DNA of 19,186 bases from Treponema sp. Its GTDB lineage: Bacteria > Spirochaetota > Spirochaetia > Treponematales > Treponemataceae. The stretch spans positions 1-19,186 of the forward strand of contig JAFLSP010000016.1 in the NCBI GenBank assembly GCA_022510885.1, read 5' to 3'. Both the position numbers and the translations under genes were made by a program. The notes beneath the pieces were generated by a model, which was given only the letters and a program-made list of their open reading frames with translations, was not told where the DNA came from and made no database searches. This document shows positions 90 through 13,137 of this stretch, in pieces (positions within the stretch are counted from its first letter, which is position 1; each line of letters opens with the position of its first letter).

Positions 90-118
90 GGACAGACTGT
101 CAGAATCTTTCAAATTAT

Positions 119-1459
119 TCAGACAGCAAACAAAATTTTCAATCCGTTTAGTATATCATCAAAGAGAGTAGAGTTATCTTTTATATCACAATAAACCCAT
201 ATATCTTCTCTTTTTACCATATCTCCCTCTTTTTTCTGAATTTTCTCTATCACTTTGAACAATTCATCTTGTCGCGCTTTTGAGAATTTCTTTCCTTCAA
301 GCGCAACAAAACCGACTTGCCGTTCACCATTCCAATAAACCTTGGCATCTTCAAATTTGCTCGGCCAACTGTACTCTTTACTGCCATTTATTTCTAACCA
401 TTGCAGTTTCTTGTCAGGAAACGTTTTGCGAAACCTCTCCTCCATGACCTCACGGAGGGGCTCATTTCTGTTTCCCCAAAATTTTACAAAATCGTTCGCC
501 GCATCAAATTTATCCTGGCTAGAATAAATTTCCTCAATGAGTTTCTTGTCCACAGAGCTCATATACGCTTTTCCTCCTAAATGCTCAAGCAGTATCTTGT
601 ATTGGTTTATATAGACCCTTGCAATATCGCAAGACTCTTTCACATTTTGACTTTGACTTCGTTCCTGCTCCTCCTGTAGTCGTTCGCAGAGTTTTGGTAG
701 CAGGTTGTTTGCCAAACTCTTTTCGCCGTCCACCGCATACAGTTCTTTCAAAATTCCAGTCTTTTTGTCGTTCAGCATTTCTTTGTATTTTTTGAAACCC
801 TTATCAAATTCCAGTGGCGGCTTTTTCTCCTTGTCGTCAATCAATGTCAGATATACGACCGTGTATGTTTTTATGCCCAACTCCTCGTCAACATATTTCA
901 TGTAGCGGACGAGCTGGTTATCCATGTCGGGCGCGTAGTTGATTTTGTTTTCGATGATAATTGCCTGCTCGTCATTTTTTATGAGCAGGTCGATGTACCC
1001 CTCTTTTTCTCTTTGCTGCCCGTCGTTGTCAGTCCAAGCGATTTTGCCAGTCGGCTGTTCCTTTATAACTACTATAATCCCAAAGTCTTTCGTACAGTCG
1101 AACCGGTTCTCTATGTCCAAAAACTTGACAAACTCCTCCAAAAAATACTTCCTGCCAATCTCCGGGGTATCGGGATTCAATATCGTGAAAAGAATATCGC
1201 TGTGCAAATTCTCTTTTTCTAAAAAATTCTTTTTTAGTTCATCGGAAATTTGCCTGCCATTGTATTTAATAAGAGATTCAGCGACGGTCTCAAAGAAACT
1301 GAAACGCACGGTGCTGCCTATCTTGTGCTTTGCGTACAGCGCTTTTTTCTCTTGGGAATACGATTTACATGGACCATTAAGAAGCGATATGATAGCGGAT
1401 TGACTTTGGGCTAAGTTCTCTTTTACGAGATTAAGGATTGAATTTGACTGAGCGAGCAT
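119..1459 (-). CDS. PD-(D/E)XK-type nuclease superfamily protein (PDDEXK_4-like)
   Basis: A 446-residue protein with the core of a PD-(D/E)XK nuclease. Near residues 155-190, GYIDLLI supplies the catalytic Asp and AIIIENKI supplies the E-x-K pair, followed by a DNQLVRY segment in which Gln and Tyr often align in this family. The N-terminal 130 residues and the C-terminal half are helical and lysine-rich, without a motif I recognise. The gene is clearly A+T-richer than the DNA from 2463 onward and is divergent to a small HTH regulator, which suggests acquisition as a unit. An AATAAT box sits 6 nt before the ATG, but with no convincing -35. Stand-alone proteins of this type are often annotated only as nuclease superfamily members. 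A defence role is an inference, and the substrate is unknown. Confidence 0.7.
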   Translation of the reverse strand: MLAQSNSILNLVKENLAQSQSAIISLLNGPCKSYSQEKKALYAKHKIGSTVRFSFFETVAESLIKYNGRQISDELKKNFLEKENLHSDILFTILNPDTPEIGRKYFLEEFVKFLDIENRFDCTKDFGIIVVIKEQPTGKIAWTDNDGQQREKEGYIDLLIKNDEQAIIIENKINYAPDMDNQLVRYMKYVDEELGIKTYTVVYLTLIDDKEKKPPLEFDKGFKKYKEMLNDKKTGILKELYAVDGEKSLANNLLPKLCERLQEEQERSQSQNVKESCDIARVYINQYKILLEHLGGKAYMSSVDKKLIEEIYSSQDKFDAANDFVKFWGNRNEPLREVMEERFRKTFPDKKLQWLEINGSKEYSWPSKFEDAKVYWNGERQVGFVALEGKKFSKARQDELFKVIEKIQKKEGDMVKREDIWVYCDIKDNSTLFDDILNGLKILFAV

Positions 1460-1526
1460 ATCTTCATTATTAAACCATTCACAATTTTAAAAGCTTTCGC
1501 ACAGTCCATTTTAGTTTCCTAATAAT

Positions 1527-1539
1527 TTGTTAAAAACAA
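1527..1539. repeat. inverted repeat TTGTT-AAA-AACAA in the divergent intergenic region
   Basis: A perfect 5-bp inverted repeat around AAA lies between the divergent nuclease and XRE genes, on the nuclease side. It is A+T-rich and short, so it could be an operator half or chance. Confidence 0.25.
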
Positions 1540-1578
1540 CTTTTGCCTTTTCCTGTTGCGCAGAACAGCAGGTAAATA

Positions 1579-1594
1579 AAGTCTACTACGACTT
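1579..1594. promoter_or_regulatory. candidate operator AAGTC-TACTAC-GACTT
   Basis: A perfect 5-bp inverted repeat with a 6-bp spacer lies 20 bp upstream of the TATAAT box of the XRE gene, just where the -35 should be. Operators of restriction-modification controller proteins are built from GACT/AGTC-type arms, so arms of AGTC and GACT next to a controller-sized HTH gene are suggestive. The link to the regulator is inferred from position and sequence only. Confidence 0.4.
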
Positions 1595-1613
1595 CAAAAC
1601 ATGAGCAATAACT

Positions 1614-1619
1614 TATAAT
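1614..1619 (+). promoter_or_regulatory. -10 box of the XRE gene, without a good -35
   Basis: A perfect TATAAT lies 32 nt before the ATG of the regulator gene. No TTG-type -35 is found 16-18 bp upstream. That space is occupied by one arm of the inverted repeat ending at 1594. A promoter with an operator in place of its -35 would fit activator dependence. The leader has no clear Shine-Dalgarno sequence. Confidence 0.45.
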
Positions 1620-1651
1620 GTTTTTGCTTATATTTTTCTATTCTTTCTGCG

Positions 1652-1891
1652 ATGGAAATGAACTTGGCAGTTGCACAAGCCATAAAAGAACTGCGGAAAG
1701 AAAAGCATATCTCGCAAGAAAAACTGGCGGATGCCATAGATTCGCACCAAGTCTACATATCCGAAATTGAAAAAGGAAGGAAGATTCCCTCGATAACGAT
1801 TCTTTATAATATGGCGCGTTGTTTTGGGCTGTCGCTGGCAGAGTTTGCAAATATTATTGAAGAAAACTTAAACAAGCCTTTGTGCGGTTGA
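1652..1891 (+). CDS. XRE-family HTH regulator, controller-protein size
   Basis: A 79-residue protein made almost entirely of one XRE/Cro-type helix-turn-helix domain: the helix 2-helix 3 region reads SQEKLADAIDSHQVYISEIEKG at about residues 21-42, followed by a PSITILYNMARCFGL helix. Length and layout resemble the small controller (C) proteins of restriction-modification systems, which regulate their own gene and a nuclease. A divergent nuclease gene starts 192 nt away. No methyltransferase gene is visible nearby, so a classical R-M system is not shown. A second ATG two codons downstream is an equally possible start. Like the nuclease gene, it is A+T-rich compared with the rest of the window. 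Confidence 0.8.
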   Translation: MEMNLAVAQAIKELRKEKHISQEKLADAIDSHQVYISEIEKGRKIPSITILYNMARCFGLSLAEFANIIEENLNKPLCG

Positions 1892-1906
1892 GCACCGATG
1901 CTGGTG

Positions 1907-1936
1907 AGCCGTGTATACAGGGCGGGCACGGTTTTT
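1907..1936 (+). terminator. probable terminator of the XRE gene
   Basis: AGCCGTG (1907-1913) can pair with CACGGTT (1927-1933), including one G-T pair, and the right arm runs into TTTTT at 1932-1936. It lies 16 nt after the XRE stop codon, with a smaller CACC/GGTG hairpin just before it. This looks like an intrinsic terminator of moderate strength. Confidence 0.5.
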
Positions 1937-2427
1937 GACAAAGTGAAGCACGGCTTGATATTCACTCTTTGCTCGGAACGTCGTTCGTTGAGGTGAACGT
2001 GCTGTCAAGCGCGTGGTAGAGCATCCTCTGAACGTTCACTGCAAACCCCTGCTTTATCCGCTTAAAGTACGCCTGTTCCAGAACCTGTGCGGTGTAAAAA
2101 AGCGTGTCCTTCTTGCGGATGTTCATGATGATGTTCTGCGTAATGGCAGCCCGCTTGCTTACTTTACATACCAATTGCCCGTTTCCGTTTTAGGTGGTAT
2201 TGGAATTTGCAAATCGGCGGTGGCGGTGATGAAAATTTTTGTGAGATGCACGAAATACAATACCACGCGAGAAAAATTCGGAAGCTCACGAACCGTTTAA
2301 AACTCAATGTTACAGCATTTGACAGCAAATGCGCGACTTGGTATGAGTCAATTGACGAAAAGGAGAATTTCACGAATGCGGCTGTGCATGACAAAAAGAA
2401 TCAGGTCTTATATGTGTTCTGCATTCA

Positions 2428-2456
2428 TTGCCGCTCGCGCAGAATTCGGCTACAAT
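2428..2456 (+). promoter_or_regulatory. promoter of apbE, predicted leaderless
   Basis: TTGCCG (2428-2433), 17 bp, TACAAT (2451-2456), then 6 nt to the ATG at 2463. Transcription normally starts about 7 nt after the -10 box, so the mRNA should begin at the start codon. No Shine-Dalgarno sequence precedes the ATG. Confidence 0.65.
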
Positions 2457-2462
2457 ACCACG

Positions 2463-3449
2463 ATGAGACGCCGTTTCCTTTCATTCGTGCTGATACTGCC
2501 GCTTTTTGCCGCTTGTCGGAAATCCCCTGAGCCGCCGCGGACGGGGGAGGCGCTGGGGACGGTCTGCACGGTCAATGCGTTTGCGGACGGGACGGCGGCC
2601 TTGTACGACGCGCTGTTCGCGCGGCTGCGGCAGATTGACGGGATTTTCAGCGCGACGGACGCGCGGTCCGAGCTTTCTGCCGTCAACCGGGCGGCGGGCG
2701 AGCGGGCGGTCTCCGTGAGCGGCGAGCTGTTTTCCGTGGTGCAGGCCGCGCTGCGCGTTTCCGCGCTGACTGACGGCGCGTTCGACTGTACGGTGGGGCC
2801 GCTCGTCTCCCTGTGGGGCATTGCCACCGACCATGCGCGCGTTCCGTCCGACGCTGAGCGGGAGTCGGCCCGGTCGCTCGTGGGGTGGCGCGACTGCGTG
2901 CTTTCGGCGGAGGATTCGTCGGTGTTCCTGGCGAAAAAGGGCATGGCGCTGGATTTGGGCGGCATTGCCAAGGGCTATGCTGCTGACGTGCTGGCGGACA
3001 TCCTGCGCGCGCGCAAGGTGCGGCGGGCGGTCATCAACTTAGGCGGCACGATTTATGTGGTCGGCACGAAGGCGGACGGAACGCCGTGGCGCGTGGGCGT
3101 GAAGAACCCCGACGACCCGCAGGGCGAACCCGCGCTTGCGCTCGACCTGGGCGAGGTGGCGGTGGTGACGAGCGGCGACTACGAGCGTTTTTTCGAGCAG
3201 GACGGCATCCGCTATCATCACATCCTTGACCCGAAGACGGGCTTTCCCGCGCGGACGGACCTGCGCTCGGTTACGGTCGTGCATCAGTCCGCGCTGCTTG
3301 CCGACGCGCTCACCACGGCGTTTTTTGTGCTCGGCATGGACAAGTCGCGCGAACTTGCGCAGCGGCTCGGCATTGGCGCGGTCTTTATTGCGGAAAATCA
3401 CGCCGTGAGCGCGACAGACGACCTTGCACAAAATGTCGTTTTGTTCTAA
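2463..3449 (+). CDS. apbE: ApbE-type FAD:protein FMN transferase, lipoprotein
   Basis: A 328-residue protein of the ApbE family, which moves FMN from FAD onto a Ser/Thr of exported flavoproteins such as the RnfG/NqrC subunits of ion-pumping redox complexes. The N-terminus MRRRFLSFVLILPLFAAC is a lipoprotein signal, with a lipobox ending in Cys at residue 18, so the enzyme is membrane-anchored outside the cytoplasm. Family signatures are GGIAKGYAAD (about 166-175, FAD binding), INLGG (about 190-194), HHILDPKTGFPA (about 251-262) and ADALTTAFFVLG near the end. The start at 2463 is chosen because it gives the signal peptide directly and lies just after the promoter; an upstream extension to 2307 in the same frame has no such features. 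No target flavoprotein is encoded nearby. Confidence 0.93.
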   Translation: MRRRFLSFVLILPLFAACRKSPEPPRTGEALGTVCTVNAFADGTAALYDALFARLRQIDGIFSATDARSELSAVNRAAGERAVSVSGELFSVVQAALRVSALTDGAFDCTVGPLVSLWGIATDHARVPSDAERESARSLVGWRDCVLSAEDSSVFLAKKGMALDLGGIAKGYAADVLADILRARKVRRAVINLGGTIYVVGTKADGTPWRVGVKNPDDPQGEPALALDLGEVAVVTSGDYERFFEQDGIRYHHILDPKTGFPARTDLRSVTVVHQSALLADALTTAFFVLGMDKSRELAQRLGIGAVFIAENHAVSATDDLAQNVVLF

Positions 3450-3452
3450 TCT
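3424..3452 (+). promoter_or_regulatory. promoter of the 3459 gene and proAB, predicted leaderless
   Basis: TTGCAC (3424-3429), 17 bp, TAATCT (3447-3452), 6 nt, ATG at 3459. The -10 box contains the TAA stop codon of apbE. The hexamers are less perfect than elsewhere, but the 17-bp and 6-nt spacings are identical to the other leaderless cases. Confidence 0.5.
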
Positions 3453-3458
3453 TATGGT

Positions 3459-3989
3459 ATGGGGACAGATGCCATAGCGGAGTTTGTAGAGAAACGAGTC
3501 GTCGATGCGATGGGCGAGATGCTTGCGACGGACGACGTGCAGAAAGTGCGGGAGGACGCGCTGATTGTGGCCGGCGCGTTCGTGGGTGGTATTACGCGGC
3601 AGGATGAGCTGACGGCGGACGCGCGGCGGCTGTTGCAGAGTTTTCAGAAGAACATCATCCTGCTTGTGCAGAAGACTTGGGTGGAAAAGGACGACGTGTC
3701 GCTCAAGGAGCAGGTGCTGTACAAACTTGACCAGTTCTGTGCCGCCATGAAGGACAGCCACTGGACGGCACTTTACCCCCTGTTCAGAGAGATTATCACC
3801 GATGTCGTGTACCTCATGTTCGGCAGCCAGGCAAAAAGCAGGGACTTTGACGAGTATGCCCTGCGCATCGACCCCGAATTCGGCATTTTCTGGTGGTATT
3901 TTACGCAGCTTCCTGCGGCCGTGGACTGGTCGGACGAAAAGAGTTTTTACGTGCTGCTGGCGGGAATGTTCTTTTTGGCGAACTACTGA
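3459..3989 (+). CDS. unrecognised 176-residue cytoplasmic protein upstream of proA
   Basis: I do not recognise this protein. It is acidic, mostly helical by composition, with no signal peptide or membrane segment at the N-terminus and a hydrophobic C-terminal tail (FYVLLAGMFFLANY). A Trp/Phe-rich patch (FGIFWWYFTQLP) lies at about residues 142-153. It starts 9 nt after apbE and its TGA stop shares one base with the ATG of proA, so it is very probably co-transcribed and translationally coupled with proline synthesis. No motif suggests an enzyme. It may be a lineage-specific gene. Confidence 0.75.
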   Translation: MGTDAIAEFVEKRVVDAMGEMLATDDVQKVREDALIVAGAFVGGITRQDELTADARRLLQSFQKNIILLVQKTWVEKDDVSLKEQVLYKLDQFCAAMKDSHWTALYPLFREIITDVVYLMFGSQAKSRDFDEYALRIDPEFGIFWWYFTQLPAAVDWSDEKSFYVLLAGMFFLANY

Positions 3990-5260
3990 TGATTACCGAA
4001 ACCTGCAAGACATTGCGCTCCGCGCAGGCGACGCTCGCGCTGCATACGGCGGCGCAGAAAAACCGCGCGCTCCAGTGCGTTGCCGACGCGCTCAATAAGA
4101 ACCGAAACGACATCATCGCCGCGAACAAGGCGGATTTGGAGGCGGCGCGGGCGCGCGGCATGAGCGAGTCGGTGGTGGACCGGCTGCTGCTTGACGACCG
4201 GCGGATTGACGGCATTATTGCCAGCATGGGCGTGGTCATCGCGCAGACCGACCCGGTGGGCGAGGTGACGGGCGGCTGGAACACGCCCACGGGGCTTTCC
4301 ATTCGGCAGGTGCGTGTGCCGCTCGGCGTGGTGGCGATTATCTACGAGAACCGCCCCAACGTGACGGTGGATGCGTTCTGCCTTGCCTACAAGAGCGGAA
4401 ACGCCATCCTGCTGCGCGGCTCGTCAAGCACGCTCAACTCGAACCGCGCGATTCTTGCGGCGATACGGCAGGGCTTGCGCGCGGCGGGCGCGGACGGCGT
4501 GGCGGACGCGGTTGCCCTGTGCGAGCCGCAGGCAGACCACGGCGACGTGGCGCAGATTCTGAACGCGGTGGGGCAGATTGACTGCGTGCTTCCGCGCGGC
4601 GGCGCGACGCTCATTCAGCGCGTGGTGCGCGACGCGAGAATCCCCGTGATTGAGACGGGCGCGGGCGTGTGCCATCTGTTCGTGGACGAGAGCGCGGACG
4701 TGGACATGGCGGCGGCAATCGCCGAAAACGCAAAAATCCAGCGGCCGAGCGTGTGCAACGCGCTTGACTGCATTCTGGTGCACGAGCGGTGCGCGGAGTC
4801 CTTTTTGCCCAAACTGCTTGCCACGTTCGCCGGGCGCGTGGAAATCCGGGCGGACAAGGTTGCTTATGACATCCTGCACGGCGCGCCGGGCGCGGACGGC
4901 ACACGGCTCGTTCCCGCGCAGGAAGGCGACTTCGGCTATGAGTTCTTGGACCTGATATGCGCCGTTAAAATAGTCGGCTCTCTTTCCGAGGCGATTGCCT
5001 TCATCAACGCGCACAGCACGCACCACAGCGAGAGCATCTGCACGAACGACCGCGCCCATGCCCGCGCGTTCCAGGCGCAGGTTGACAGCGCGTGCGTCTA
5101 CGTGAACGCGAGCACGCGCTTTACCGACGGCGGCGAATTCGGCTTCGGGGCGGAACTGGGCATCAGCACGCAGAAACTGCACGCGCGCGGGCCGATGGGC
5201 ATCAGCGCGCTGACCACGACCAAATTCCTGATTGACGGCGACGGGCAGGTGCGCGCGTAG
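3989..5260 (+). CDS. proA: gamma-glutamyl phosphate reductase (ProA)
   Basis: A 423-residue aldehyde-dehydrogenase-fold enzyme that reduces gamma-glutamyl phosphate to glutamate-5-semialdehyde with NADPH, the second step of proline synthesis from glutamate. Signatures are IYENRPNVTVDAF and GNAILLRGSS for cofactor and substrate binding, RPSVCNALD with the catalytic Cys at about residue 256, HSTHHSESI, and the C-terminal RFTDGGEFGFGAELGIST typical of ProA. Length matches the family. The start at 3989 (MITETCKT) overlaps the previous stop as TGATG and suits the family N-terminus; a longer frame upstream lies inside the previous gene. It is followed 12 nt later by proB. Confidence 0.96.
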   Translation: MITETCKTLRSAQATLALHTAAQKNRALQCVADALNKNRNDIIAANKADLEAARARGMSESVVDRLLLDDRRIDGIIASMGVVIAQTDPVGEVTGGWNTPTGLSIRQVRVPLGVVAIIYENRPNVTVDAFCLAYKSGNAILLRGSSSTLNSNRAILAAIRQGLRAAGADGVADAVALCEPQADHGDVAQILNAVGQIDCVLPRGGATLIQRVVRDARIPVIETGAGVCHLFVDESADVDMAAAIAENAKIQRPSVCNALDCILVHERCAESFLPKLLATFAGRVEIRADKVAYDILHGAPGADGTRLVPAQEGDFGYEFLDLICAVKIVGSLSEAIAFINAHSTHHSESICTNDRAHARAFQAQVDSACVYVNASTRFTDGGEFGFGAELGISTQKLHARGPMGISALTTTKFLIDGDGQVRA

Positions 5261-5293
5261 CGGGGATTCGGCATGGCGGGGGAATCGGCAATG
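5260..5293 (+). repeat. tandem near-duplicate of ribosome-binding site plus start codon before proB
   Basis: The 16-nt unit GCGGGGATTCGGCATG (5260-5275) is followed at once by the 18-nt unit GCGGGGGAATCGGCAATG (5276-5293). Each has a G-run and an in-frame ATG, so proB has two equivalent starts six codons apart. Confidence 0.5.
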
Positions 5294-6118
5294 ACCATCA
5301 AGGCGACCATCGCGCGCGCGCGCAAAATCGTCATCAAAATCGGCTCGAACACGCTGGCAAAGGCGGACGGCACGATTAACTTCGACTTCCTGCAAAATCT
5401 TTCGGCCTCGTGCGCCGCGCTGATGGGGCAGGGCAAGCAGATTGTCATCGTGTCGTCGGGCGCGCAGGTGGGCGGGCTTTCCACCATAAGCGGCTGGGCG
5501 CGCCGCAAGGACATCCACTACCGGCAGGCCTTGTGCGCAATCGGGCAGGTGGAGCTGATTGACAAGTGGCGCGAGGCTTTCAACGCGCACGGCATCCACA
5601 TCGGGCAGCTGCTGCTCACCAAGGACGACTTCGAGAACGACCACCGCTCGCTCAATATCCGCAACACGCTGTTCACGCTGGTGGACGAGGGCGTTGTCCC
5701 GGTCATCAACGAGAACGATTCCGTTTCCATCGACGAATTCACGATTGGCGACAACGACAACCTGAGCGCGCAGACGGCGATTCTGTGGAGCGCGGACGTG
5801 CTGATTCTGTTCAGCGACATTGACGGCGTGTACACGGACAACCCCAAGACGAACCCGCAGGCGCGCATCATCGAGACCGTGCATGACATTTCCGCGCTGC
5901 GCAAGGAAATCCACATCGGCGCGACCAACGACTTCGGCACGGGCGGCATCGAGACCAAGCTGCAGGCCGCCGAGAAGGCCGCGGGCTTCGGCATTCCCAC
6001 GATTCTCGCGAACGGCGGCAAGCCGGACATCGTGACGCGCCTTGCCGACGGCAGCGAGCAGGCGACCCTCTTCCTTGCCGACGAGGACTGCCTGCGGCGC
6101 GTGCTCGGCAAGGCGTGA
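5273..6118 (+). CDS. proB: glutamate 5-kinase (ProB), short form without PUA domain
   Basis: A 281-residue amino-acid kinase that phosphorylates glutamate at the gamma carboxyl, the first and feedback-controlled step of proline synthesis. Motifs are KIVIKIGSNTLA near the N-terminus, SSGAQVGG, VPVINENDSV, GDNDNLSAQTA, SDIDGVYTDNPKTNP and GTGGIETKLQAA. It ends soon after the kinase domain, so the C-terminal PUA domain of E. coli-type ProB (about 367 residues) is absent; short forms are known in other bacteria. Two in-frame starts, ATG 5273 and ATG 5291, each follow a G-rich ribosome-binding-like stretch. The second gives MTIKATIARARK, which begins close to the kinase fold. The order proA-proB is the reverse of the common proBA. 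Confidence 0.94.
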   Translation: MAGESAMTIKATIARARKIVIKIGSNTLAKADGTINFDFLQNLSASCAALMGQGKQIVIVSSGAQVGGLSTISGWARRKDIHYRQALCAIGQVELIDKWREAFNAHGIHIGQLLLTKDDFENDHRSLNIRNTLFTLVDEGVVPVINENDSVSIDEFTIGDNDNLSAQTAILWSADVLILFSDIDGVYTDNPKTNPQARIIETVHDISALRKEIHIGATNDFGTGGIETKLQAAEKAAGFGIPTILANGGKPDIVTRLADGSEQATLFLADEDCLRRVLGKA

Positions 6119-6157
6119 TTTCGCCGAAAACCCGTCCGGCGTGGGGCTTTGGCGTTG

Positions 6158-6186
6158 TTGCGGAATTCCGGCGCGCGGTGTATACT
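6158..6186 (+). promoter_or_regulatory. promoter of the PL10 pectate lyase gene, predicted leaderless
   Basis: TTGCGG (6158-6163), 17 bp, TATACT (6181-6186), 6 nt, ATG at 6193. There is no Shine-Dalgarno sequence, since the 6 nt before the ATG are TTTTCC. Confidence 0.7.
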
Positions 6187-6192
6187 TTTTCC

Positions 6193-7425
6193 ATGAGACG
6201 AATGCTTTTTTGTGCGTTTTGCGGGGCGGTTTTGGTGGTGGCGTGTACGCCGCCAGACTTGGACAGCCGGAAGAACGAAACGAACGATGAATGGCGGGCG
6301 CGGAACGAAGTGGCGTATGAGCCGATTTCCTTGCGGCCGTTCGATGATGCTATCAACCATGCGCGGAAAGAGTACAAGAACCACGTTCCGCCCTATCCGC
6401 TGTATGATGAAAGCCAGATTGTGGGCATTGCGGAGAACATGCTGTGGCTGCAAAATCCTGACGGCGGGTGGAAGAAGAACTACGACTGGGCGCGCAAGTA
6501 TGTTCGCAATGAGCTGACGGGGCAGCACAAGTCCTTGCAGCGCGTCCCGCCGCTCGGCTATGAGCTTAAGACGAACGGCCAGCAGAGCACGCTCGACAAC
6601 CGCAACGTGTACGCGCAGATTACCTACCTCGCGCAGGTGTACCGGCAGGTGCCCGACCCGCGTTACAAGGCCGCCGCCGCGCGCGCCTTCGACTGGATTT
6701 TGGGCGCGCAGCACCCCGTTTCCGGCGGGTGGACGGGCGCGGACGTGTACGGCGTAACCTACAACGACGACGTGATGAGCGGAACGATGGCGACCCTGCG
6801 CGCCATTGCTGACGGTGACCCATTGTATGCCTTCCTCGGCAGAAAGGCGCGGAAACGCGCGCGCGCCGCCTACGACCGCGCCATTCAGTGCGTCATCAAC
6901 ACGCAGATTCGCATACCGCAGGCAGACGGCACGGAACTGCTGACCGCCTGGTGCCAGCAGCACGACCACGAGACCTTGCAGCCGATGTGGGCGCGGGATT
7001 TTGAGCCGCCGTCAGTCACGACGAGCGAGAGCGTGGAGTTGGTGCTGATGCTCATGGAGGACCCGAAGCCCTCCGACGCGCTCAAGCGGAGCATCGCCGC
7101 CGCCTGCGACTGGCTTCTGCGCGACGACATCGTAATCCGCGGGAAGAAAATCGTGCGCGAGCGGCGTGAGGGCGAGGTCTCGTCCGCCGGGCAGTACACC
7201 GACTACGAGCAGGTTATGGTGGACGACCCGGCCGCGCCCGACCTGTGGGCGCGCATGTATGACGTGCAGACCATGCGTCCTGTTTGGTGCGACCGCGGCC
7301 GCAAAATCTGTGCGGAATTCAACGACATGAGCAAGGAACGGCGCAACGGCTACGCCTACACGGGCACTTGGGTCAAGAACATCCGCGAGCCGTACAGCGC
7401 ATGGAAAGCGCGGTTCATGCCGTAG
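6193..7425 (+). CDS. PL10-family pectate lyase, lipoprotein
   Basis: A 410-residue protein resembling polysaccharide lyase family 10, which cleaves polygalacturonate by Ca-dependent beta-elimination. The N-terminus MRRMLFCAFCGAVLVVAC is a lipoprotein signal with its Cys at residue 18, so it should be anchored in a membrane facing out of the cytoplasm. Family-like segments are ENMLWLQNPDGGWKKNYDW, STLDNRNVYAQITYLAQVY, WCQQHD, ARDFEPPSVTTSESVELV, DLWARMYDVQTMRPVWCDR and ERRNGYAYTGTW, which carry the aromatic, acidic and Arg residues expected of the helical-toroid fold. The start is set by the signal peptide and the promoter, not the longer frame from 6115 that overlaps proB. Its last 11 nt overlap the end of the convergent acyltransferase gene. 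Confidence 0.88.
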   Translation: MRRMLFCAFCGAVLVVACTPPDLDSRKNETNDEWRARNEVAYEPISLRPFDDAINHARKEYKNHVPPYPLYDESQIVGIAENMLWLQNPDGGWKKNYDWARKYVRNELTGQHKSLQRVPPLGYELKTNGQQSTLDNRNVYAQITYLAQVYRQVPDPRYKAAAARAFDWILGAQHPVSGGWTGADVYGVTYNDDVMSGTMATLRAIADGDPLYAFLGRKARKRARAAYDRAIQCVINTQIRIPQADGTELLTAWCQQHDHETLQPMWARDFEPPSVTTSESVELVLMLMEDPKPSDALKRSIAAACDWLLRDDIVIRGKKIVRERREGEVSSAGQYTDYEQVMVDDPAAPDLWARMYDVQTMRPVWCDRGRKICAEFNDMSKERRNGYAYTGTWVKNIREPYSAWKARFMP

Positions 7426-8386
7426 CCCAAAAGTCGAAAAAATTGTACCACTGGTACGGGTGTTGCAGGCAGTGCTCTTCCAGTTCGTGCGCAAAGGCGG
7501 CAATCGTCTGGCGGATGCGCTCCTCGCGTTCCTTGCGGCCGCACCCGAACGAGACGGGGTTCTTGCGCGCATAGAAATCATACTGCGGGGCAAGGCTCAC
7601 GTCCTTTTGCCGCAGCCCGAAGACAAAATAGGTCGGCACGTCGAGCAGCGCGCACAGCAGGTAGGCGCCATAGGCGAACGGCGCAGGCTCGCCCAGAAAA
7701 TCCTGCGTCACCACGCGGTTCTGCGTGTTCGCGCTCGTGCGGTCGCCGGCAATCACCACCATCTCGCCGCGCGCCACTTTCTCTTGCAGCATGAGCATCG
7801 TGTCGGGCGTGATGTCGCTCGCGTTGATGACGTTCAGCGTCGCGTCCGCGTTCACTTTTTTGAGCAGCGCGTTGAATCCTGCCGTCACGTGCATGTCCAC
7901 AATCGAGTTGACGACGAATGGCTTGGTCACGCCCGTTTCGTGCGCGTTGGCAAGTCCGCGCAGAAGCTCGCTGTTGCCCAAATGCGCGATGAACAGCATC
8001 ACGCCGCGTCCGTTCTCCAGGTTCTGCACCAGGTCGCCGATGTCGTCGTCCTGAAAATGAATCTGCCGGAAAGAGAACGTGCCCGCCCACACTTCCAGTT
8101 TTTCGGTCAGCGCGATGGCAAAGGAGAGGACGTGCCGCAGCGTGCTGATTTTGACCGGCGGCATACCGCGTTCGGCGCGCGTGGCGTTCACGCGGCGCAG
8201 GTAGGCTTTGCTCACGGCGCGCGTCTTGCTTCCGAACAGCCAGTAGAAAAATCCCACGGGAAAGGCGATTGCCCGCACCGCGACCGGCGGCAGCAGTTTG
8301 AGCAGGCCGAACGTGAGCGCAAGCCCGAGCGCGTGTCGCTTTTCTTTCATCTCGTGCCAGCGTTCTGCCGGCTGTTTGCCGCTCAC
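7415..8386 (-). CDS. LpxL/HtrB-like lipid acyltransferase (ApeJ C-terminal-half-like)
   Basis: A 323-residue membrane-associated acyltransferase of the LpxL/HtrB type, which transfers an acyl chain from acyl-ACP to a lipid or sugar acceptor. The HX4E catalytic motif is AHLGNSELLR (H135, E140). A hydrophobic N-terminal segment (LGLALTFGLLKLLPPVAVRAIAFPVGFFYWLFG) anchors it. I chose the GTG at 8386, which overlaps the TGA of the glycosyltransferase as GTGA, because it retains the ERWHEMKEKRHALG stretch that matches the W...ER start common in relatives. ATG 8350 would give 311 residues. In APE clusters glycosyltransferase and acyltransferase are often one fused protein; here they are separate. 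The gene is last in its operon and converges on the PL10 gene. Confidence 0.87.
   Translation of the reverse strand: MSGKQPAERWHEMKEKRHALGLALTFGLLKLLPPVAVRAIAFPVGFFYWLFGSKTRAVSKAYLRRVNATRAERGMPPVKISTLRHVLSFAIALTEKLEVWAGTFSFRQIHFQDDDIGDLVQNLENGRGVMLFIAHLGNSELLRGLANAHETGVTKPFVVNSIVDMHVTAGFNALLKKVNADATLNVINASDITPDTMLMLQEKVARGEMVVIAGDRTSANTQNRVVTQDFLGEPAPFAYGAYLLCALLDVPTYFVFGLRQKDVSLAPQYDFYARKNPVSFGCGRKEREERIRQTIAAFAHELEEHCLQHPYQWYNFFDFWATA
7437..7457 (-). terminator. terminator-like hairpin inside the end of the acyltransferase gene
   Basis: On the minus strand GTACC-AGT-GGTAC (complement of 7445-7457) is followed by AATTTTTT. This has the form of a short intrinsic terminator, but it lies about 20 nt before the stop codon of the acyltransferase, so it is coding. 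The stem is only 5 bp. Confidence 0.25.
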
Positions 8387-9129
8387 GGCGCGCGCTTGCG
8401 GCGGACGGTTTTTGCGAGCAGGACGGGCAGCCGCAGCAGCATTCCCGCGCAGAGTTTGGTGTAGACCCATGAAATCCGCGCGTTGTCGCGCAGCACGTGG
8501 AAATTGCTCACGCCGTCGGCGGGATAGGTGACGCGCACGGGGAAGAACTGGCACGGAACGCCCCGCCAAATCAGCCGGATGAGGATGTCGATGTCGAAGC
8601 CCATGCGCCGGTCGCAGCGGCCGCGCGAAAGCAGTCGGTGCGTCGGCTCGACGGGGTACACGCGGAAGCCGCACATGGCATCGGCGATGCCGCTTTCAAA
8701 ACTGACGATTTTTGCCCAGTTGTTGGCGAATTTGCGCCCGTTCTTGCGGTGCGCGGGCACGGTCTCGTCGTATTCGGGATAGCCGCAGATGAGCGCGTGT
8801 GGATTTGCCGCCGCCTGCGCAAAGAAAAAAGGCGCGCGCGTCAGGTCGTGCTGTCCGTCCGCGTCGATTTGCAGGGCGTGCGTCCAGCCGAGGCCGTGCG
8901 CCTTGGCAATGCCCGCCGCGAACGCCCCGCCTTTGCCCGTGTTCTTTGCGAGCGTGATGAGCGTTACGGCGGGATGGTCGGCGGCAATCTGACGCAGGTA
9001 CGCCTTGGTCTCCGCGCCGTTGCCGTCATCCACCAGAATGATAGGATAGCCGTACTGCGACAGCCCGTCCACCACGGCGACACAGGCCTTGCCGTGCTTG
9101 TAGACGGGAATGATGATGCCTCCGGTCAT
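8383..9129 (-). CDS. family 2 glycosyltransferase (ApeJ N-terminal-half-like)
   Basis: A 248-residue GT-A fold glycosyltransferase of family 2, resembling the dolichyl-phosphate-mannose-synthase group. GGIIIPVYKHG opens the Rossmann-like domain, VDDG is at 33-36, NTGKGGAFAAG at 63-73, and the metal and nucleotide-sugar binding DADGQ at 89-93. Later segments ADAMCGFRVYP and RRMGFDIDILIRLIWRGV are typical of this group. No clear membrane helix, although the C-terminus is basic and amphipathic. It begins 11 nt after the 151-aa gene and its stop overlaps the acyltransferase start. Together they probably glycosylate and acylate an acyl product or lipid carrier. The sugar donor cannot be told from sequence. 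Confidence 0.9.
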   Translation of the reverse strand: MTGGIIIPVYKHGKACVAVVDGLSQYGYPIILVDDGNGAETKAYLRQIAADHPAVTLITLAKNTGKGGAFAAGIAKAHGLGWTHALQIDADGQHDLTRAPFFFAQAAANPHALICGYPEYDETVPAHRKNGRKFANNWAKIVSFESGIADAMCGFRVYPVEPTHRLLSRGRCDRRMGFDIDILIRLIWRGVPCQFFPVRVTYPADGVSNFHVLRDNARISWVYTKLCAGMLLRLPVLLAKTVRRKRAP

Positions 9130-9140
9130 GGCAGGCGCGC

Positions 9141-9596
9141 CTAGCGTTCGGAGGCTATTTCGTGCGATTCAGAGAAATTGTAGAGGAGATTTCCGTCGCG
9201 GTCGGCTTTTTTTTTGTAGGTGATAACGAAGTCGCTGCCGTTCCTGCCGTCCATCAGCGCGAACAGCTGGTCGTTCGCCTGCTCGAACGTCGCCTCGTCG
9301 TCCACCAGCTCAAAGCGGACAAGGTGCGTCTGCGCGTCGGTCTCGATGACGTGAACCGTGCCGGCGAACGAGTCGTCGCTGTGTTCCGTCGCGTCCGCCG
9401 CTTCCGGGCGCACCGGCTCAACGACAAGCGCCGTCTCGTCGGGCTTTTTTTCCTTTGCCTTTTTGCGCGGCGTATCGACCACCGCCGTGTCCATCTTGTA
9501 CTCGCCCTTGACGAAATACGGCACGACGCCAATCCCCATAATCAGCAGGAGAACGACGATGTACGAAATGAACAGAATGCGTATTCTCGGTTCCAT
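9141..9596 (-). CDS. unrecognised membrane-anchored protein in the APE-like operon
   Basis: A 151-residue protein with one N-terminal transmembrane helix (about residues 8-29, ILFISYIVVLLLIMGIGVVPYFV), a charged Lys/Glu/Pro linker to about residue 75, and a small C-terminal domain (GTVHVIETDAQTHLVRFELVDD onward) that should lie outside the cytoplasm. No catalytic motif is evident and I recognise no family. It occupies the place where other APE-type clusters carry thioesterase, LolA-like or exporter genes, but does not look like any of them. The start at 9596 has a good GAGGT Shine-Dalgarno sequence 6 nt upstream and its own promoter, so it opens a second transcript that also includes the glycosyltransferase and acyltransferase. 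Confidence 0.8.
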   Translation of the reverse strand: MEPRIRILFISYIVVLLLIMGIGVVPYFVKGEYKMDTAVVDTPRKKAKEKKPDETALVVEPVRPEAADATEHSDDSFAGTVHVIETDAQTHLVRFELVDDEATFEQANDQLFALMDGRNGSDFVITYKKKADRDGNLLYNFSESHEIASER

Positions 9597-9614
9597 AGCT
9601 TACCTCAATGCTCT

Positions 9615-9643
9615 AGTATACCACAAATCGGGCAGTTTGACAA
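9615..9643 (-). promoter_or_regulatory. internal promoter for the 151-aa gene, glycosyltransferase and acyltransferase
   Basis: Reading the minus strand: TTGTCA (complement of 9638-9643), 17 bp, TATACT (complement of 9615-9620), predicted start near 9608, a 12-nt leader with GAGGT, and ATG at 9596. The -35 begins just after the stop codon of the upstream fusion gene. Confidence 0.7.
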
Positions 9644-9644
9644 A

Positions 9645-11945
9645 TCATTCCGTCAGATATATGCCGCTCGCGTAGGTGATTGTCCCGCCCGCGTCCTGCA
9701 CCGTGAAGGCGACGCTTTTTTTTGCCGCGTCATGCGTCAGGTGGACGACGACTTCCGTGTCGGGCAGGATTTTTTCCGAGAACTTGCAGCGCTTTACGTG
9801 CGCGACCGTGCGCGGCGTGCCGAAGTACCGCTGTGCGAACAGGGCGACCAAATCGACTTGCGCGACGGCGGGCAGCAGTTTGAAGGCGGGGAAGTGCCCG
9901 TCAAAGTATTCGCTCGCGGCGGGAATCCTCACCGCGAGGTCCACGGAGTCGTCCGTGCGGCGCAGGACGCGCTCTGCGGGAATGCCGTGCGGGTTTTCGG
10001 GCGCGAACAGTGCCTGAATGTCCTCTTTGTGCTTTTTGCCCTGCGCGTCTGCCGGGAGCGCGTCAAGGTAGCGCCATTTTTTTGGCAGCACGACGTTCTC
10101 AAAGAACTGCATGAGGTAGTCGTGGAAGTGGCGGTTGACGAGGTATTTTTCCGTGTCGGCGAACTTTGCCTTGCCTGCGGCGTTCAGCACGACTGCGGCG
10201 GCAAGGTACTGGCGGCGGTCGCTCATCGCCACCACGCACACGTCCTGCACCAAGCCCGACTGCACGAGGCGGTTCTCCACTTCCGTGAGCGAGATGCGCT
10301 TTTCCTCAATCTTTACGATGCTGTCCGCGCGCCCTTTGAGCAGGAACCGTCCGTCGGCGAGGATGTCCACCAGGTCACCCGTGGCAAAGCCTGCGGGGTC
10401 TTTGATGTAGGGCGAGGCAATCACGAGGCAGCCGTCGTCGTTCTTCCAGATGTTCGCGTTGTCGAACGGCGTCCATTCCAGGCCGTTTTTGCTCTGCCGG
10501 TAGGCGATGCCGCTTGTCTCCGTGCTGCCGTACACTTCCACCGGCCAGAAGCCGAAGGTGCTGTCGGTGTCCTTTGCCACTTCGGGCGTGAGCACGCCGC
10601 CGCTCGTGAAAATCCACGGGTCGGAAAGCGGAAGCCGCTGTCCCGCGTAGTCGGCGCAGGCGCGCTTGAGGAAGGCGGGCACGGCGATAATCATGTAGGG
10701 CGCGTCGTCAAGCCGCTCAAACGCCTCGGGCTGCTCGATTCTTGTGCGGCGGAACGGCACGGCGGCGGTGAAGGGCAGCATAATCGTGAAGAGCAGGCCG
10801 TAGATGTGGTGCTGGCTGACGGTTGCGCACAGCTTGCGGCGCAAAAATTCCTCGCCCCATTTGCCGAGCACGAAGGCGTTGTCCATTTCGAATTCGGTCA
10901 GCCGCTGCCGCACCGCCTTGGGATGCCCCGTCGAGCCGCTCGTGTACAGGATGATGCTCGTGTCGTCCGCGCTGATTGCGGGCGTTTCGCTCGCGTCCGT
11001 GTCCGCCGTCCGCGCGAGGATGTCCGGCACGAAGTCGCTGTCGGCAATCGTCTTGTCGGTCAGAAAGCGGATGCCCGGCTCGCTGCGGATTTCCGCGATG
11101 AAGCTGGGCGAGACGTTCGCCGTGAGCAGGATTTCCTTGCCGCATTGCAGCAGCGCGACGAAGGTCACCAGAAAATGCCAGTAGTCCTCGCAGTGCAGAA
11201 TCCACCGCTGTGCGTCGTGCGTGCGGATAAAGGCGCGCATGGTCGCGCTGTCGCGCAGGAAGTCGCTCCAGGTCAGGTAGATGCCGTCCGTCCACCGCCG
11301 CTCGTAGCACAGCACCGTGTCCGCCGCGCGCGAGTCCGCGCGGAACCGAGAAATAGGAATTGCTTTGGGCATATGTGCGTTCACCACCTTTCTGACTATG
11401 AATTCTCCGGCAAAGAGCGCTCCCATGAGCGCGTATGAGATGCCGCCGTTGTATGCCGACCACAGGACGTCGTTCTGCGCGAGGACGGTCGCAAGGGCGA
11501 CCGCGCCGTTCAGCGCGAAAAAGACGCACCACACGGCCGTCACTTTCGTGCAGTATGATTCGATTCGTTTTTCCGCGAGCGAACCGGCAATCGACTTGTC
11601 CATCATCGTGGCAAAGCGGAAGACCATCGTCGGCCGCTCGAACAGCGTGTACCCGAACGCGCACAAAAACAGCGCGCTGATGACCACGGGATAGCATTTG
11701 AGGAACAGCGGGCTTCCCGTCACCAGGCAGATGACCCCCGCCGCGAGCAGCACGCCCGACGAGACGAGCAGCCGCATCGTCTTTTTTTGACGGTGCTGTG
11801 TCGCCGCAAGAAAATACGCCGCCGCCACCGCAATCACGAACAGCGAGAATATCCGCACCGGCACGTGCAGCAGCACCAAACAGGCGAATACGAGCACGGG
11901 ATACAGGGCTGATAAAACATAAAAAATCGGTTTGGGCAACCGCAT
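9645..11945 (-). CDS. three-domain fusion: COG4648-like membrane domain, AMP-ligase, ApeI-like hotdog dehydratase
   Basis: A 766-residue protein. Residues 1-190 hold several hydrophobic helices and resemble the membrane protein that precedes the ligase in aryl-polyene clusters. Residues about 195-645 are an adenylate-forming acyl:ACP ligase: ILYTSGSTGHPKAV (332-345, phosphate loop), VYGSTETSG (471-479), TGDLVDI (522-528), GRADSIVKI (538-546) and a Lys-rich GKKHKED end (636-642). Residues about 655-766 are a hotdog dehydratase-like domain with FDGHFPAFKLLPAVAQVDLV (681-700; H684, D698). In APE pathways these parts are separate genes (apeG, apeH, apeI order) that load an aryl or acyl acid onto an ACP and dehydrate the hydroxyacyl-ACP. 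The start codon overlaps the preceding ACP stop by one base. Confidence 0.88.
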   Translation of the reverse strand: MRLPKPIFYVLSALYPVLVFACLVLLHVPVRIFSLFVIAVAAAYFLAATQHRQKKTMRLLVSSGVLLAAGVICLVTGSPLFLKCYPVVISALFLCAFGYTLFERPTMVFRFATMMDKSIAGSLAEKRIESYCTKVTAVWCVFFALNGAVALATVLAQNDVLWSAYNGGISYALMGALFAGEFIVRKVVNAHMPKAIPISRFRADSRAADTVLCYERRWTDGIYLTWSDFLRDSATMRAFIRTHDAQRWILHCEDYWHFLVTFVALLQCGKEILLTANVSPSFIAEIRSEPGIRFLTDKTIADSDFVPDILARTADTDASETPAISADDTSIILYTSGSTGHPKAVRQRLTEFEMDNAFVLGKWGEEFLRRKLCATVSQHHIYGLLFTIMLPFTAAVPFRRTRIEQPEAFERLDDAPYMIIAVPAFLKRACADYAGQRLPLSDPWIFTSGGVLTPEVAKDTDSTFGFWPVEVYGSTETSGIAYRQSKNGLEWTPFDNANIWKNDDGCLVIASPYIKDPAGFATGDLVDILADGRFLLKGRADSIVKIEEKRISLTEVENRLVQSGLVQDVCVVAMSDRRQYLAAAVVLNAAGKAKFADTEKYLVNRHFHDYLMQFFENVVLPKKWRYLDALPADAQGKKHKEDIQALFAPENPHGIPAERVLRRTDDSVDLAVRIPAASEYFDGHFPAFKLLPAVAQVDLVALFAQRYFGTPRTVAHVKRCKFSEKILPDTEVVVHLTHDAAKKSVAFTVQDAGGTITYASGIYLTE

Positions 11946-12187
11946 TACAGGGAGATTGGTTCGAGGATACGCACCACGTCGGCGAGCGTCTTCGTGGACT
12001 TGAACGCCGCCGGTTCGATTTTTGCCGTCAGGTAAGGCTTCATCTTGACAATCAGTTCCACCGCGTCGATGGAGTCCAAGTCTAAATCCGTCGCGATGTT
12101 CGCCTCCGGCGTTATCACCGCCTCGTCCAGGTCGAATTCGCGAATCAGCACGTCCTTGATTTTTTCAAACAGTTGTTCCTTCTGCAT
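11945..12187 (-). CDS. acyl carrier protein 2 (ApeF-like)
   Basis: An 80-residue acyl carrier protein. DLDLDSIDAVEL at about residues 31-42 carries the Ser that would receive the 4'-phosphopantetheine arm. The start at 12187 (MQKEQLFEKIKD) is chosen over an in-frame ATG 39 nt upstream because it fits ACP length and follows AAAGG. Its first 23 nt overlap the end of the preceding ACP gene in another frame, and its TAA overlaps the ATG of the ligase fusion. A likely substrate carrier for the fused ligase and dehydratase. Confidence 0.88.
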   Translation of the reverse strand: MQKEQLFEKIKDVLIREFDLDEAVITPEANIATDLDLDSIDAVELIVKMKPYLTAKIEPAAFKSTKTLADVVRILEPISL

Positions 12188-12452
12188 CGCCTTTGAGTCC
12201 TTTTTCCGTAGCGATAAACTCTGCAAGCGCGTTGACGGAGGCGAAATGCTTTTTGTTGTCCGCGCTCTCCGCGTTGAATTTCACCCCGAATTTCTTTTTG
12301 AGCGCGACTCCCAGCTCCAGCGCGTCGATGGAATCAAGCCCCAGACCCGCGCCGAAAATCGGCTCGTCGTCAACGATATTCTCCGGCGTGATGTCCTCAA
12401 GCTCCAAGGACTGCACGATAACTTCTTTAATCTGTCGTTTCAGTTCGTCCAT
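12165..12452 (-). CDS. acyl carrier protein 1 (ApeE-like)
   Basis: A 95-residue acyl carrier protein with GLGLDSIDALELGVAL at about residues 36-51; the Ser in DSID is the phosphopantetheine site. It is longer than ACP 2 and differs clearly from it, as the two ACPs of APE clusters do (one for the starter, one for chain extension, a role split known for that family and not shown here). Its start lies 26 nt inside the end of the Gdt1-like gene, and its end overlaps ACP 2 by 23 nt, so translation of all three is probably coupled. Confidence 0.88.
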   Translation of the reverse strand: MDELKRQIKEVIVQSLELEDITPENIVDDEPIFGAGLGLDSIDALELGVALKKKFGVKFNAESADNKKHFASVNALAEFIATEKGLKGDAEGTTV

Positions 12453-13137
12453 GGCAGGCAGTATAGCGGTTTTTGAGCAGAATGACAATGCAGAGCACCG
12501 CAAAAACGACCGCCGCCCCCGCCATGACCGGCACGAGGTGCGCGCGCGCGCCGAGCGACGTGACGACCATGTGCAGGTTGATGAAGCCGAACGCCGCGAA
12601 GACCGCAAAGGCGAGCAGCTTGAAGAGCGCGTCGGGAGTCTTTCCGTGCAGGATGAAGGCGAGCGCAAGCCCAAGCATGTCGGCGGCAAAAAAACCGACG
12701 GACGCGGCAAGCCACACGAAGAACAGCCCCGCGTTCAGCCCGTTGGTCGCCCCAAAGGTGATGGCGGACAGCTGCGTCTTGTCGCCCATTTCCGCGATAA
12801 AAAAGATGCAGAACACGGCGAGCGCGGCAAACTGAATCTTGCTTTCGCCGCCCGTTTCCTCCTCCGCGTCCTTTGCAAGCGAGGTGAGCGAAAAATAGAA
12901 GAAGGCGAGCGTGGCAATCAGTTTGACAATCCACAGGTGCGCCTTGAGGAATTCGTTGAGCAGCCCGCCCGCGCAGACGGACGCGCCGTTGATGAGCAGA
13001 ATCGCCGCCGCCGTGCCGAGCACAATCGAGCGGATTTTGTACTTTGCGGTAAGCGCGAACAGCATGAGCTGCGTCTTGTCGCCCATCTCCGCCACGAAAA
13101 AGGTCAGCAGAATTGTCAGGAATGTGGCTAGTGTCAT
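12427..13137 (-). CDS. Gdt1/TMEM165 (UPF0016) family cation transporter
   Basis: A 236-residue integral membrane protein with about six helices in two similar halves. Each half bears the family signature: VAEMGDKTQL (residues 15-24) and IAEMGDKTQL (in the second half), whose acidic residues bind the cation. Relatives export Mn2+ in bacteria (MneA) and move Mn2+/Ca2+ in the Golgi. The gene begins by an ATGA overlap with rlmB, with AAGGAGGA ahead of it, the strongest Shine-Dalgarno sequence in this operon. Its 3' end overlaps ACP 1. The exact ion is not decided by sequence. Confidence 0.92.
   Translation of the reverse strand: MTLATFLTILLTFFVAEMGDKTQLMLFALTAKYKIRSIVLGTAAAILLINGASVCAGGLLNEFLKAHLWIVKLIATLAFFYFSLTSLAKDAEEETGGESKIQFAALAVFCIFFIAEMGDKTQLSAITFGATNGLNAGLFFVWLAASVGFFAADMLGLALAFILHGKTPDALFKLLAFAVFAAFGFINLHMVVTSLGARAHLVPVMAGAAVVFAVLCIVILLKNRYTACHGRTETTD

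Follow-up and report, generated by a model that had tools for sequence, protein, structure and literature searches.

Does a run of genes that resembles the middle of an aryl-polyene (ape) cluster, without a ketosynthase beside it, form a pathway of its own or a part of a larger one? The question is raised by a 19,186-nucleotide stretch of DNA (hereafter, the window), which is the entire contig C68 of a Treponema MAG assembled in 336 contigs. On the minus strand, between positions 12452 and 7415, we find two acyl carrier proteins (ACPs), a 766-aa fusion protein, a 151-aa protein, a family-2 glycosyltransferase (GT2) and an LpxL-like acyltransferase, a gene order that corresponds to apeE-F-GHI-J (Table 1). 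The original prediction, made from the letters of the window, had described the ACPs, the membrane/ligase/hotdog protein, the GT2 and the acyltransferase in ape order, flanked by rlmB and ychJ on one side and by a convergent PL10 gene on the other, with no ketosynthase alongside. This description holds: the genes lie where they were placed, a GDT1-type gene stands between the ACPs and rlmB/ychJ, and no ketosynthase is present on the 19-kb contig, which ends with the window. The prediction offered two explanations, namely elongation genes at another locus or a reduced pathway acting on a ready-made acid, and considered the block a candidate for an undescribed system. The first of these is borne out, as the genome carries the elongation genes on four further contigs. 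Since the missing genes exist elsewhere in the genome, the locus represents a known system in broken-up form and not a new one; we conclude that the window block very probably supplies the loading and lipid-attachment steps (apeE-F-GHI-J) of an aryl-polyene pathway scattered over five contigs.

Table 1. Location of the window genes, their neighbors and the remote ape-like genes of the same genome
Feature	Location	Strand	Observations
Acyl carrier protein 1 (apeE-like), 95 aa	12165..12452	-	PF00550; DSI motif at residue 40
Acyl carrier protein 2 (apeF-like), 80 aa	11945..12187	-	PF00550; DSI motif at residue 38
Membrane/AMP-ligase/hotdog fusion, 766 aa	9645..11945	-	AMP-binding and ApeI-like matches; hydrophobic N-terminus
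N-terminal membrane part of fusion (apeG by position only)	11376..11945	-	Hydrophobic segments at residues 5-50, 56-102, 134-157
AMP-forming ligase part of fusion (apeH-like)	9996..11285 (limits approximate)	-	PF00501 64.8 bits; PF13193 28.9 bits
C-terminal hotdog part of fusion (apeI-like dehydratase half)	9645..9968	-	GHF at residue 683
151-aa protein	9141..9596	-	Single N-terminal hydrophobic segment; no Pfam match; absent from the original prediction
Family-2 glycosyltransferase (first half of apeJ)	8383..9129	-	PF00535 50.3 bits; DADGQ motif
LpxL-like acyltransferase (second half of apeJ)	about 7415..8350	-	PF03279 28 bits (cut-off 22.3); HLGNSE motif
GDT1-type cation antiporter (neighbor, not an ape gene)	12427..13137	-	PF01169 90 bits
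Convergent pectate lyase (neighbor)	6115..7425	+	PF09492 206 bits
apeB-C-D-like	contig C279		
apeK-L-M-like	contig C266		apeM read in two frames
apeN-O-P-Q-like	contig C270		
apeR-like	contig C53 (3.9 kb)		Adjoins aromatic ammonia-lyase

The individual proteins of the block fit their places. The first ACP reaches 89.2 bits against the NCBIfam model PRK09184 (cut-off 70) and shares 67-92% identity with the ACPs that precede the ligase in related genomes. Ordinary fatty-acid loading is ruled out by this match and by the fatty-acid synthesis (FAS) genes, which form their own set on contig C307. The second ACP could also start at a TTG farther upstream, at 12226. Within the fusion, the membrane part matches PF04279 weakly (residues 14-183, 21.1 bits, under the cut-off), the ligase part carries the motifs YTSGSTG, YGSTE and TGD and a KKHKED lysine region, and the hotdog part scores 27.2 bits against the ApeI-like family PF22818, just short of the 28.5 cut-off, and matches PDB 6qsr_A over residues 676-747 (E 5.1e-5). 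The 151-aa protein is a lineage-specific member of the block, found directly after the ligase in five other genomes (G084, G101, G064, G137, G124) with 37-65% identity. The reading frame of the LpxL-like acyltransferase stays open upstream to 8674. As for the flanks, the GDT1 gene is the same neighbor in G084 and G101, and in G124 (locus L114) a homologue of the pectate lyase stands between apeJ and apeK-L. Because 1301 of the 7996 candidates scored are homologues of the ligase at E <= 1e-3, and because the order of the block is kept in relatives, the arrangement in the window is not due to chance.

The genome-wide search that the original prediction had called for recovered ApeO-, ApeR- and ApeC-type synthases, an ApeQ-type reductase and an MMPL exporter, together with the thioesterase, LolA-like protein and ApeP-like dehydratase that it had listed as missing; all lie on the remote contigs. 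Locus L003 has the order DUF3261-KS-DH-KR, which is that of apeN-O-P-Q; locus L054 has methyltransferase, Ketoacyl-synt_2 and acyltransferase; and locus L052 has thioesterase, LolA and MMPL. The best PDB matches of four remote proteins are published Ape proteins: 6qsp_A/7f28_B for the ApeO type, 6qsp_B/7f28_A for the ApeC type, 4ewg/7f27 for the ApeR type (465 and 441 bits, the next being 247), and 7caw/6nrp (ApeQ) for the ApeQ type (298 bits, followed by 7czc at 297, 4iiu at 275 and others at <= 200). This places the genes in the known aryl-polyene pathway, and the suggestion of an undescribed system is not sustained. Profile matches are more uneven. The ketosynthase of locus L002 scores 588.7 bits against PRK09116 (cut-off 470), and the transport proteins ApeL, ApeM and ApeN (PF03548, PF03176, DUF3261) are all above cut-off. 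The ApeO-type ketosynthase is below the cut-off of its model PRK09185 (374.9 versus 407), as is the ApeP-like protein for the Pfam ApeP-like profile (20.5 versus 27), with a weak best PDB match to 6qsr_B (E 0.015). As the MAG comprises 336 contigs, some single contigs may be contaminants, although the same loci recur in relatives.

The genes thus lie apart, on five contigs here, and relatives with longer contigs are split likewise; a single cluster is usual for ape systems and needless for the mechanism. Among the 91 genomes of the genus that carry both the ligase and an ApeO-type ketosynthase, the two are within 20 kb in 39, not within 20 kb in 52 (in some through fragmented assembly alone), and on different contigs in 45. 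The small contig C53 alone could not have shown a split. The scattering is nevertheless real, since the genes are also split on single contigs in genomes assembled into one or two contigs (G143, G156, G100); together with the same split and the same flanks on the longer contigs of G084 and G101, this rules out an assembly artefact as its sole cause. In several other relatives the ape set is contiguous, with the loading and elongation parts together, so that the comparison of synteny proposed at the outset gives a kept block order and, in some relatives, a full set at one place. In a ligase tree of 27 rows from the Treponema order and two outgroups with very long branches, labels set by hand (of which split_or_unknown also covers rows truncated at the end of a contig) change six times between split and contiguous, at least four of these changes being forced by well-supported branches, so the splitting does not appear to have happened just once. 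When the genes are ranked by their identity to the window species, the ranks correlate (0.80 for ligase-KSO, 0.71 for ligase-KSR and 0.71 for KSO-KSR, from a part of the rows entered by hand, 40/91, 39/90 and 38/87 pairs), which mostly reflects species kinship. Genome mining that works by clusters recognizes an aryl-polyene producer by its contiguous cluster. With no ligase-ketosynthase pair within 20 kb in 52 of 91 genomes, it may underestimate the number of producers or count one pathway twice.

Dispersal over five contigs could also be read as decay, that is, a system no longer working in this species, and the apeM gene, which is divided between two ORFs in different frames, points the same way. 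We consider this unlikely. The frame change in apeM is either an assembly error or real damage, and of seven relatives searched, six have the gene as a single open frame (in the seventh, a genome 61% complete, it was not found). The window proteins and five remote ones (ApeO, ApeR, ApeQ and ApeP types and the lyase) have open frames with the motifs sought, the exception being one of two patterns absent from the ApeQ-type reductase. Both the ligase and the ApeO-type ketosynthase are retained, on different contigs, in the window genome and in G084, G101, G064, G137 and G124. Nor did we find a decayed duplicate: the genome has one ligase of this kind, and its only other match is remote (E 2e-4).

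The ammonia-lyase beside apeR bears on the starter unit. It is present in 68 of 100 genomes with a core gene and in 2 of 46 without one (p 3e-14). As it was not found in the remaining 32, among them G003, G004 and G013 (> 90% complete), it cannot be the only source of the starter. A role in histidine degradation (Hut) is ruled out by the lack of urocanase in all 146 genus genomes, the window genome included (5 of 14 control genomes were positive, 4 over the cut-off). A lyase of Treponema socranskii is a proven tyrosine ammonia-lyase (TAL), according to the accessible part of PMC8750797. The same gene would suit a flexirubin-type pathway, in which the polyene acid is made alike and is esterified to a dialkylresorcinol rather than built into a glycolipid: a lyase (FlxA) starts flexirubin in Chitinophaga (PMC3992019, available portion), the methyltransferase is nearest to FlxJ and the LolA protein is nearest to LolA2_flexi. 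However, all three models stay under their cut-offs (FlxA 347.7 versus 700, FlxJ 434.6 versus 560, LolA2 69.5 versus 125 bits), and the E. coli ape cluster, as given in the accessible part of PMC8253772, has the same local orders B-C-D, E-F-G-H-I-J, K-L-M and N-O-P-Q. We regard a flexirubin as quite improbable.

Another reading is a reduced, self-contained pathway, in which a ready-made aromatic or fatty acid would be loaded on an ACP and turned into an acylated glycolipid with no elongation. That idea drew on the absence of a ketosynthase from the window contig, and the many genomes with ligase and ketosynthase on different contigs would agree with it. Yet this genome also contains the elongation genes, and the contiguous clusters of relatives hold both parts, so that the block is a piece of an almost complete ape set. 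Among 146 genus genomes, ligase and ApeO-type ketosynthase are both present in 91, both absent in 47, and found alone in 6 and 2, respectively (Fisher p 5e-29, which partly reflects shared ancestry); the 6 ligase-only genomes, out of 97 with the ligase, are all < 90% complete. These counts exclude three ligase-like rows (G083, G136 and G009, N-terminal half only, 36-42% identity), which lowers the ligase genomes from 100 to 97, and count genomes with two ligase pieces (G016, G033, G082, G110) at one position, as was done for two lyase pieces. The reduced pathway is accordingly very unlikely. It is hardly conceivable that the window module serves the separate type-II synthase set on contig C332 (ACP, KS-KS fusion, KR and FabA-like DH): one genome contains both sets, but an ACP, a KR and a DH already belong to the C332 set, and the family, order and co-occurrence of the ape-type synthases tie them to the window module.

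On the gene content, order and co-occurrence described above, protein families suggest the following scheme for the aryl-polyene pathway, in which starter, product, lipid anchor and each reaction are predicted. The ammonia-lyase beside apeR would deaminate tyrosine to 4-coumarate, which the window ligase would load on the first ACP. The ApeR- and ApeO/ApeC-type synthases, the ApeQ-type reductase and a dehydratase (the window hotdog and the remote ApeP-like protein) would extend this starter to a conjugated polyene, and the FlxJ-like methyltransferase may tailor the ring. The GT2, LpxL-like and PlsC-like acyltransferases would then anchor the polyene on a membrane lipid distinct from lipid A, and the MMPL, LolA-like and DUF3261 proteins would carry the product to the outer membrane. 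We infer priming from tyrosine via 4-coumarate and a carrier lipid other than lipid A: no UbiC match over the cut-off and no LpxC were found in the 146 genus genomes, the window genome included for LpxC (4 of 14 control genomes LpxC-positive). The lyase thus offers a testable route to an aromatic starter where UbiC was not found, and a working pathway in a genus lacking LpxC would show that the aryl-polyene anchor need not be lipid A, a possibility already raised in the accessible part of PMC8253772. It is conceivable, if doubtful, that a tyrosine-primed aryl-polyene glycolipid with its own MMPL/LolA/LolB-like export is a regular outer-membrane lipid in this two-membrane genus without lipid A, and that the cluster could be broken up repeatedly without loss of function because the pathway became housekeeping rather than a mobile specialized trait.

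Among known systems, the closest description is the ape cluster apeA-apeR of E. coli CFT073 (PMC8253772, as far as accessible). Of its functions, 17 of 18 are matched here by family and place, with apeG by position only and apeA outside the comparison, and the local orders are the same. There the genes form one 15.5-kb cluster, whereas here they occupy five contigs, with GHI in one frame, J in two genes, an ammonia-lyase beside apeR, and a genus without LpxC and without UbiC over the cut-off. In the available portions of PMC8041823 and PMC8358021, ApeI of Acinetobacter baumannii is fused to the C-terminus of ApeH, the same joining as here, so the fusion is not a novelty; for the remote genes, the two top-ranking PDB matches include the A. 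baumannii ApeO-ApeC, ApeR and ApeQ structures. The window differs from A. baumannii in its scattered genes and in a membrane part in the same frame, which was not seen in eight non-treponeme loci checked of 28 (554-623 aa versus 766 aa) and is a small variation. Chitinophaga pinensis flexirubin (PMC3992019, same portion) would have the tyrosine ammonia-lyase start in common, and the flexirubin models are the nearest NCBIfam models of the methyltransferase and LolA, yet below cut-off. In the accessible literature on Treponema and Spirochaetota aryl polyenes and TAL (subscription papers and preprints outside its scope), scattered ape genes are not described and the lyase is not linked to ape genes. 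Automatic predictions of aryl-polyene clusters have already been published for Treponema and other Spirochaetota, namely for Treponema_D sp900541945 (PMC8863827, PMC10904984) and for camel-rumen Spirochaetota (PMC9177762), and Treponema abundance in swine gut correlates with arylpolyene clusters (within PMC8863827, PMC9964075, PMC10904984, PMC9177762, PMC9769736, PMC12918008 and PMC8750797), all as far as these texts are accessible. These clusters are of the same class as the window pathway, in gut treponemes, and the two separate arylpolyene entries given for one bin in PMC10904984 would fit a split cluster.

The gene block originally predicted for the window was present and open throughout. 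On the minus strand, a GDT1 antiporter gene is followed by two ACP genes, a 766-aa membrane/ligase/hotdog fusion, a 151-aa protein, a GT2 and an LpxL-like acyltransferase; neighbours overlap or sit at most 50 bases apart, and a motif check found the expected motifs in the ACPs, ligase, GT2 and acyltransferase. The 151-aa protein directly follows the ligase in our genome and in five others (37-65% identity) and is absent from the remaining loci compared. With few exceptions, the named relatives from the protein search belong to Treponema or to other Spirochaetes; goat and yak forestomach is the source of some of them. One match (P0035), whose ligase is 60% identical, lies on a 996-kb contig with the source label Bacteroides/Prevotella, reflecting either gene transfer or a misnamed bin. 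The window itself encodes two pectate lyases, each from a different family (see table), which would be fitting for a pectin-degrading gut species.

Coordinates of features in the window (G000:C68), elsewhere in its genome (G000) and in two relatives (G020, G124)
Feature	Contig (locus)	Coordinates	Strand
446-aa protein with PD-(D/E)XK nuclease domain (PF14281)	G000:C68	119-1459	minus
Pectate lyase (PF09492)	G000:C68	6115-7425	plus
151-aa protein, no Pfam match	G000:C68	9141-9596	minus
Pectate lyase (PF00544)	G000:C68	17656-18999	plus
apeM (MMPL type)	G000:C266 (L052)	908-3408	minus
Separate type-II synthase set with ACP, KS-KS fusion, ketoreductase and FabA-like dehydratase	G000:C332 (L001)	1-6978	
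Three ACP genes, plus an additional gene for a PlsC-like acyltransferase, ahead of the ligase	G020:C20 (L032)	7496-9148	
Pectate lyase gene between acyltransferase and thioesterase-LolA pair	G124:C38 (L114)	7600-10159	

The proposal that this block might be a reduced, undescribed lipid system without a ketosynthase (KS) fails, as the synthase, reductase and exporter genes lie on other contigs of the same genome (2.0 Mb in 336 contigs, 88% complete, the window being all of contig C68). A genome search gave five ketosynthase matches on four contigs. Contig C307 holds an ordinary FAS set; C270 carries a DUF3261 protein, KS, dehydratase and ketoreductase; C53 carries a KS (588.7 against the PRK09116 cut-off of 470) and, facing it convergently, a gene for an aromatic amino acid lyase; and C332 carries a separate synthase set. 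Additional searches located a methyltransferase-Ketoacyl-synt_2-acyltransferase block on C279 and a thioesterase-LolA-MMPL block on C266. By the E. coli gene table of PMC8253772, we read the blocks of this genome as counterparts of apeB-C-D, apeE-F-GHI-J, apeK-L-M, apeN-O-P-Q and apeR, with G assigned by position only and lipoprotein A outside the comparison. On this gene content, we take the system to be a scattered variant of the aryl-polyene pathway. The apeM on C266 is split into two ORFs in different frames; it is a single open frame in six of the seven relatives searched and had no match in the seventh, whose genome is 61% complete. The synthase set on C332 also has FMN reductase, PlsC, patatin and LysE, and its 804-aa KS-KS fusion, whose second half is without the active-site Cys, resembles a KS plus chain-length factor.

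Solved structures agree with these assignments. The window hotdog and, weakly, the C270 dehydratase match the two chains of 6qsr, which we take to be the ApeI-ApeP pair; both dehydratase profiles score slightly under their cut-offs. The C270 synthase matched 6qsp_A and 7f28_B best (both ApeO), the short synthase on C279 matched 6qsp_B and 7f28_A (both ApeC), and the C53 synthase matched 4ewg (465 bits) and 7f27 (441 bits), both ApeR, the next scoring 247. The reductase matched 7caw and 6nrp (ApeQ, 298 bits) best, followed by 7czc (297), 4iiu (275) and others at <=200 bits. The papers on 6QSP, 7F28, 7F27, 4EWG, 7CAW and 6NRP confirm them as these Ape proteins.

Our first comparison set comprised regions from twenty relatives. 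Unbroken runs from ACP or ligase to the ApeO-type synthase occur in relatives (e.g., L030, L035, L036, L039, L041, L046, L048), most of them extending to the ketoreductase (on the opposite strand in L035) and the ApeR type; in L115 the genes from B to Q are contiguous apart from a single additional gene. The two closest relatives (G084 and G101, first ACP 87% and 82% identical) keep the order of the window block, its ychJ-rlmB-GDT1 flank and its convergent pectate lyase, and their apeN-O-P-Q and lyase-apeR blocks lie mid-contig elsewhere with the same neighbours as in our genome. The arrangement in G124 is likely an intermediate of cluster break-up.

Among 146 genomes surveyed from the genus, we found the ligase in 100 (E <= 1e-60; 97 once three weak matches of half length were left out), the ApeO type in 93 (E <= 1e-50), the ApeR type in 92 (E <= 1e-75) and the lyase in 70 (E <= 1e-60). 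Ligase and ApeO type occur together in 91 genomes, ligase only in 6 (G023, G117, G127, G133, G135, G141; all <90% complete), synthase only in 2 and neither in 47; for the ApeR type the counts are 90, 7, 2 and 47. In the 91, ligase and ApeO type lie <=20 kb apart in 39, further apart on one contig in 7 and on different contigs in 45. Part of these 45 must reflect fragmented assembly; splitting is nevertheless real, since gaps of 36, 28 and 95 kb are seen in genomes of one or two contigs (G143, G156 and G100). A ligase tree suggests several break-ups, but its labelling lumps genuine splits together with contig ends. ApeO and ApeR types are <=20 kb apart in 56/87 genomes, and lyase and ApeR type in 12/62; the latter two are neighbours in four genomes, ours included (first coordinates 1.3-1.8 kb apart).

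The lyase is present in 68/100 genomes with any of the three core genes and in 2/46 without. Histidine degradation is unsupported as its role, as urocanase was found in 0/146 genomes; nor is an E. coli-like 4-hydroxybenzoate source supported, UbiC exceeding its cut-off in 0/146 (one weak match has stops; among controls it was found only in E. coli). A Treponema socranskii lyase, chosen as a PAL and carrying the selectivity pair Phe-His, made p-coumarate from tyrosine (PMC8750797). Of our lyase and its 120 listed relatives, 117/121 carry Tyr-His at this pair and 4/121 Phe-His, and the ASG triad is in 121/121; no NCBIfam lyase model exceeded its cut-off for our lyase. Because of the co-occurrence, the lack of urocanase and of UbiC above cut-off, and the T. 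socranskii activity, 4-coumarate would be the likeliest starter, and the pathway is probably primed by tyrosine. The 32 genomes with no lyase match would need another starter source, unless the gene is missing from the assembly.

LpxC was found in 0/146 genomes (4/14 controls, E. coli included), and therefore lipid A is an unlikely substrate of the LpxL-like acyltransferase. Its probable role, by analogy with ApeJ (glycosyltransferase/acyltransferase in the E. coli table), is to finish the polyene lipid; the same source gives lipid A, or a derivative of it, as a possible anchor and cites a solved lipid from Xenorhabdus doucetiae (PMC8253772). The window's genus is likely Treponema_D, and published predictions of aryl-polyene clusters already exist for gut Treponema_D and for rumen Spirochaetota (PMC8863827, PMC10904984, PMC9177762).
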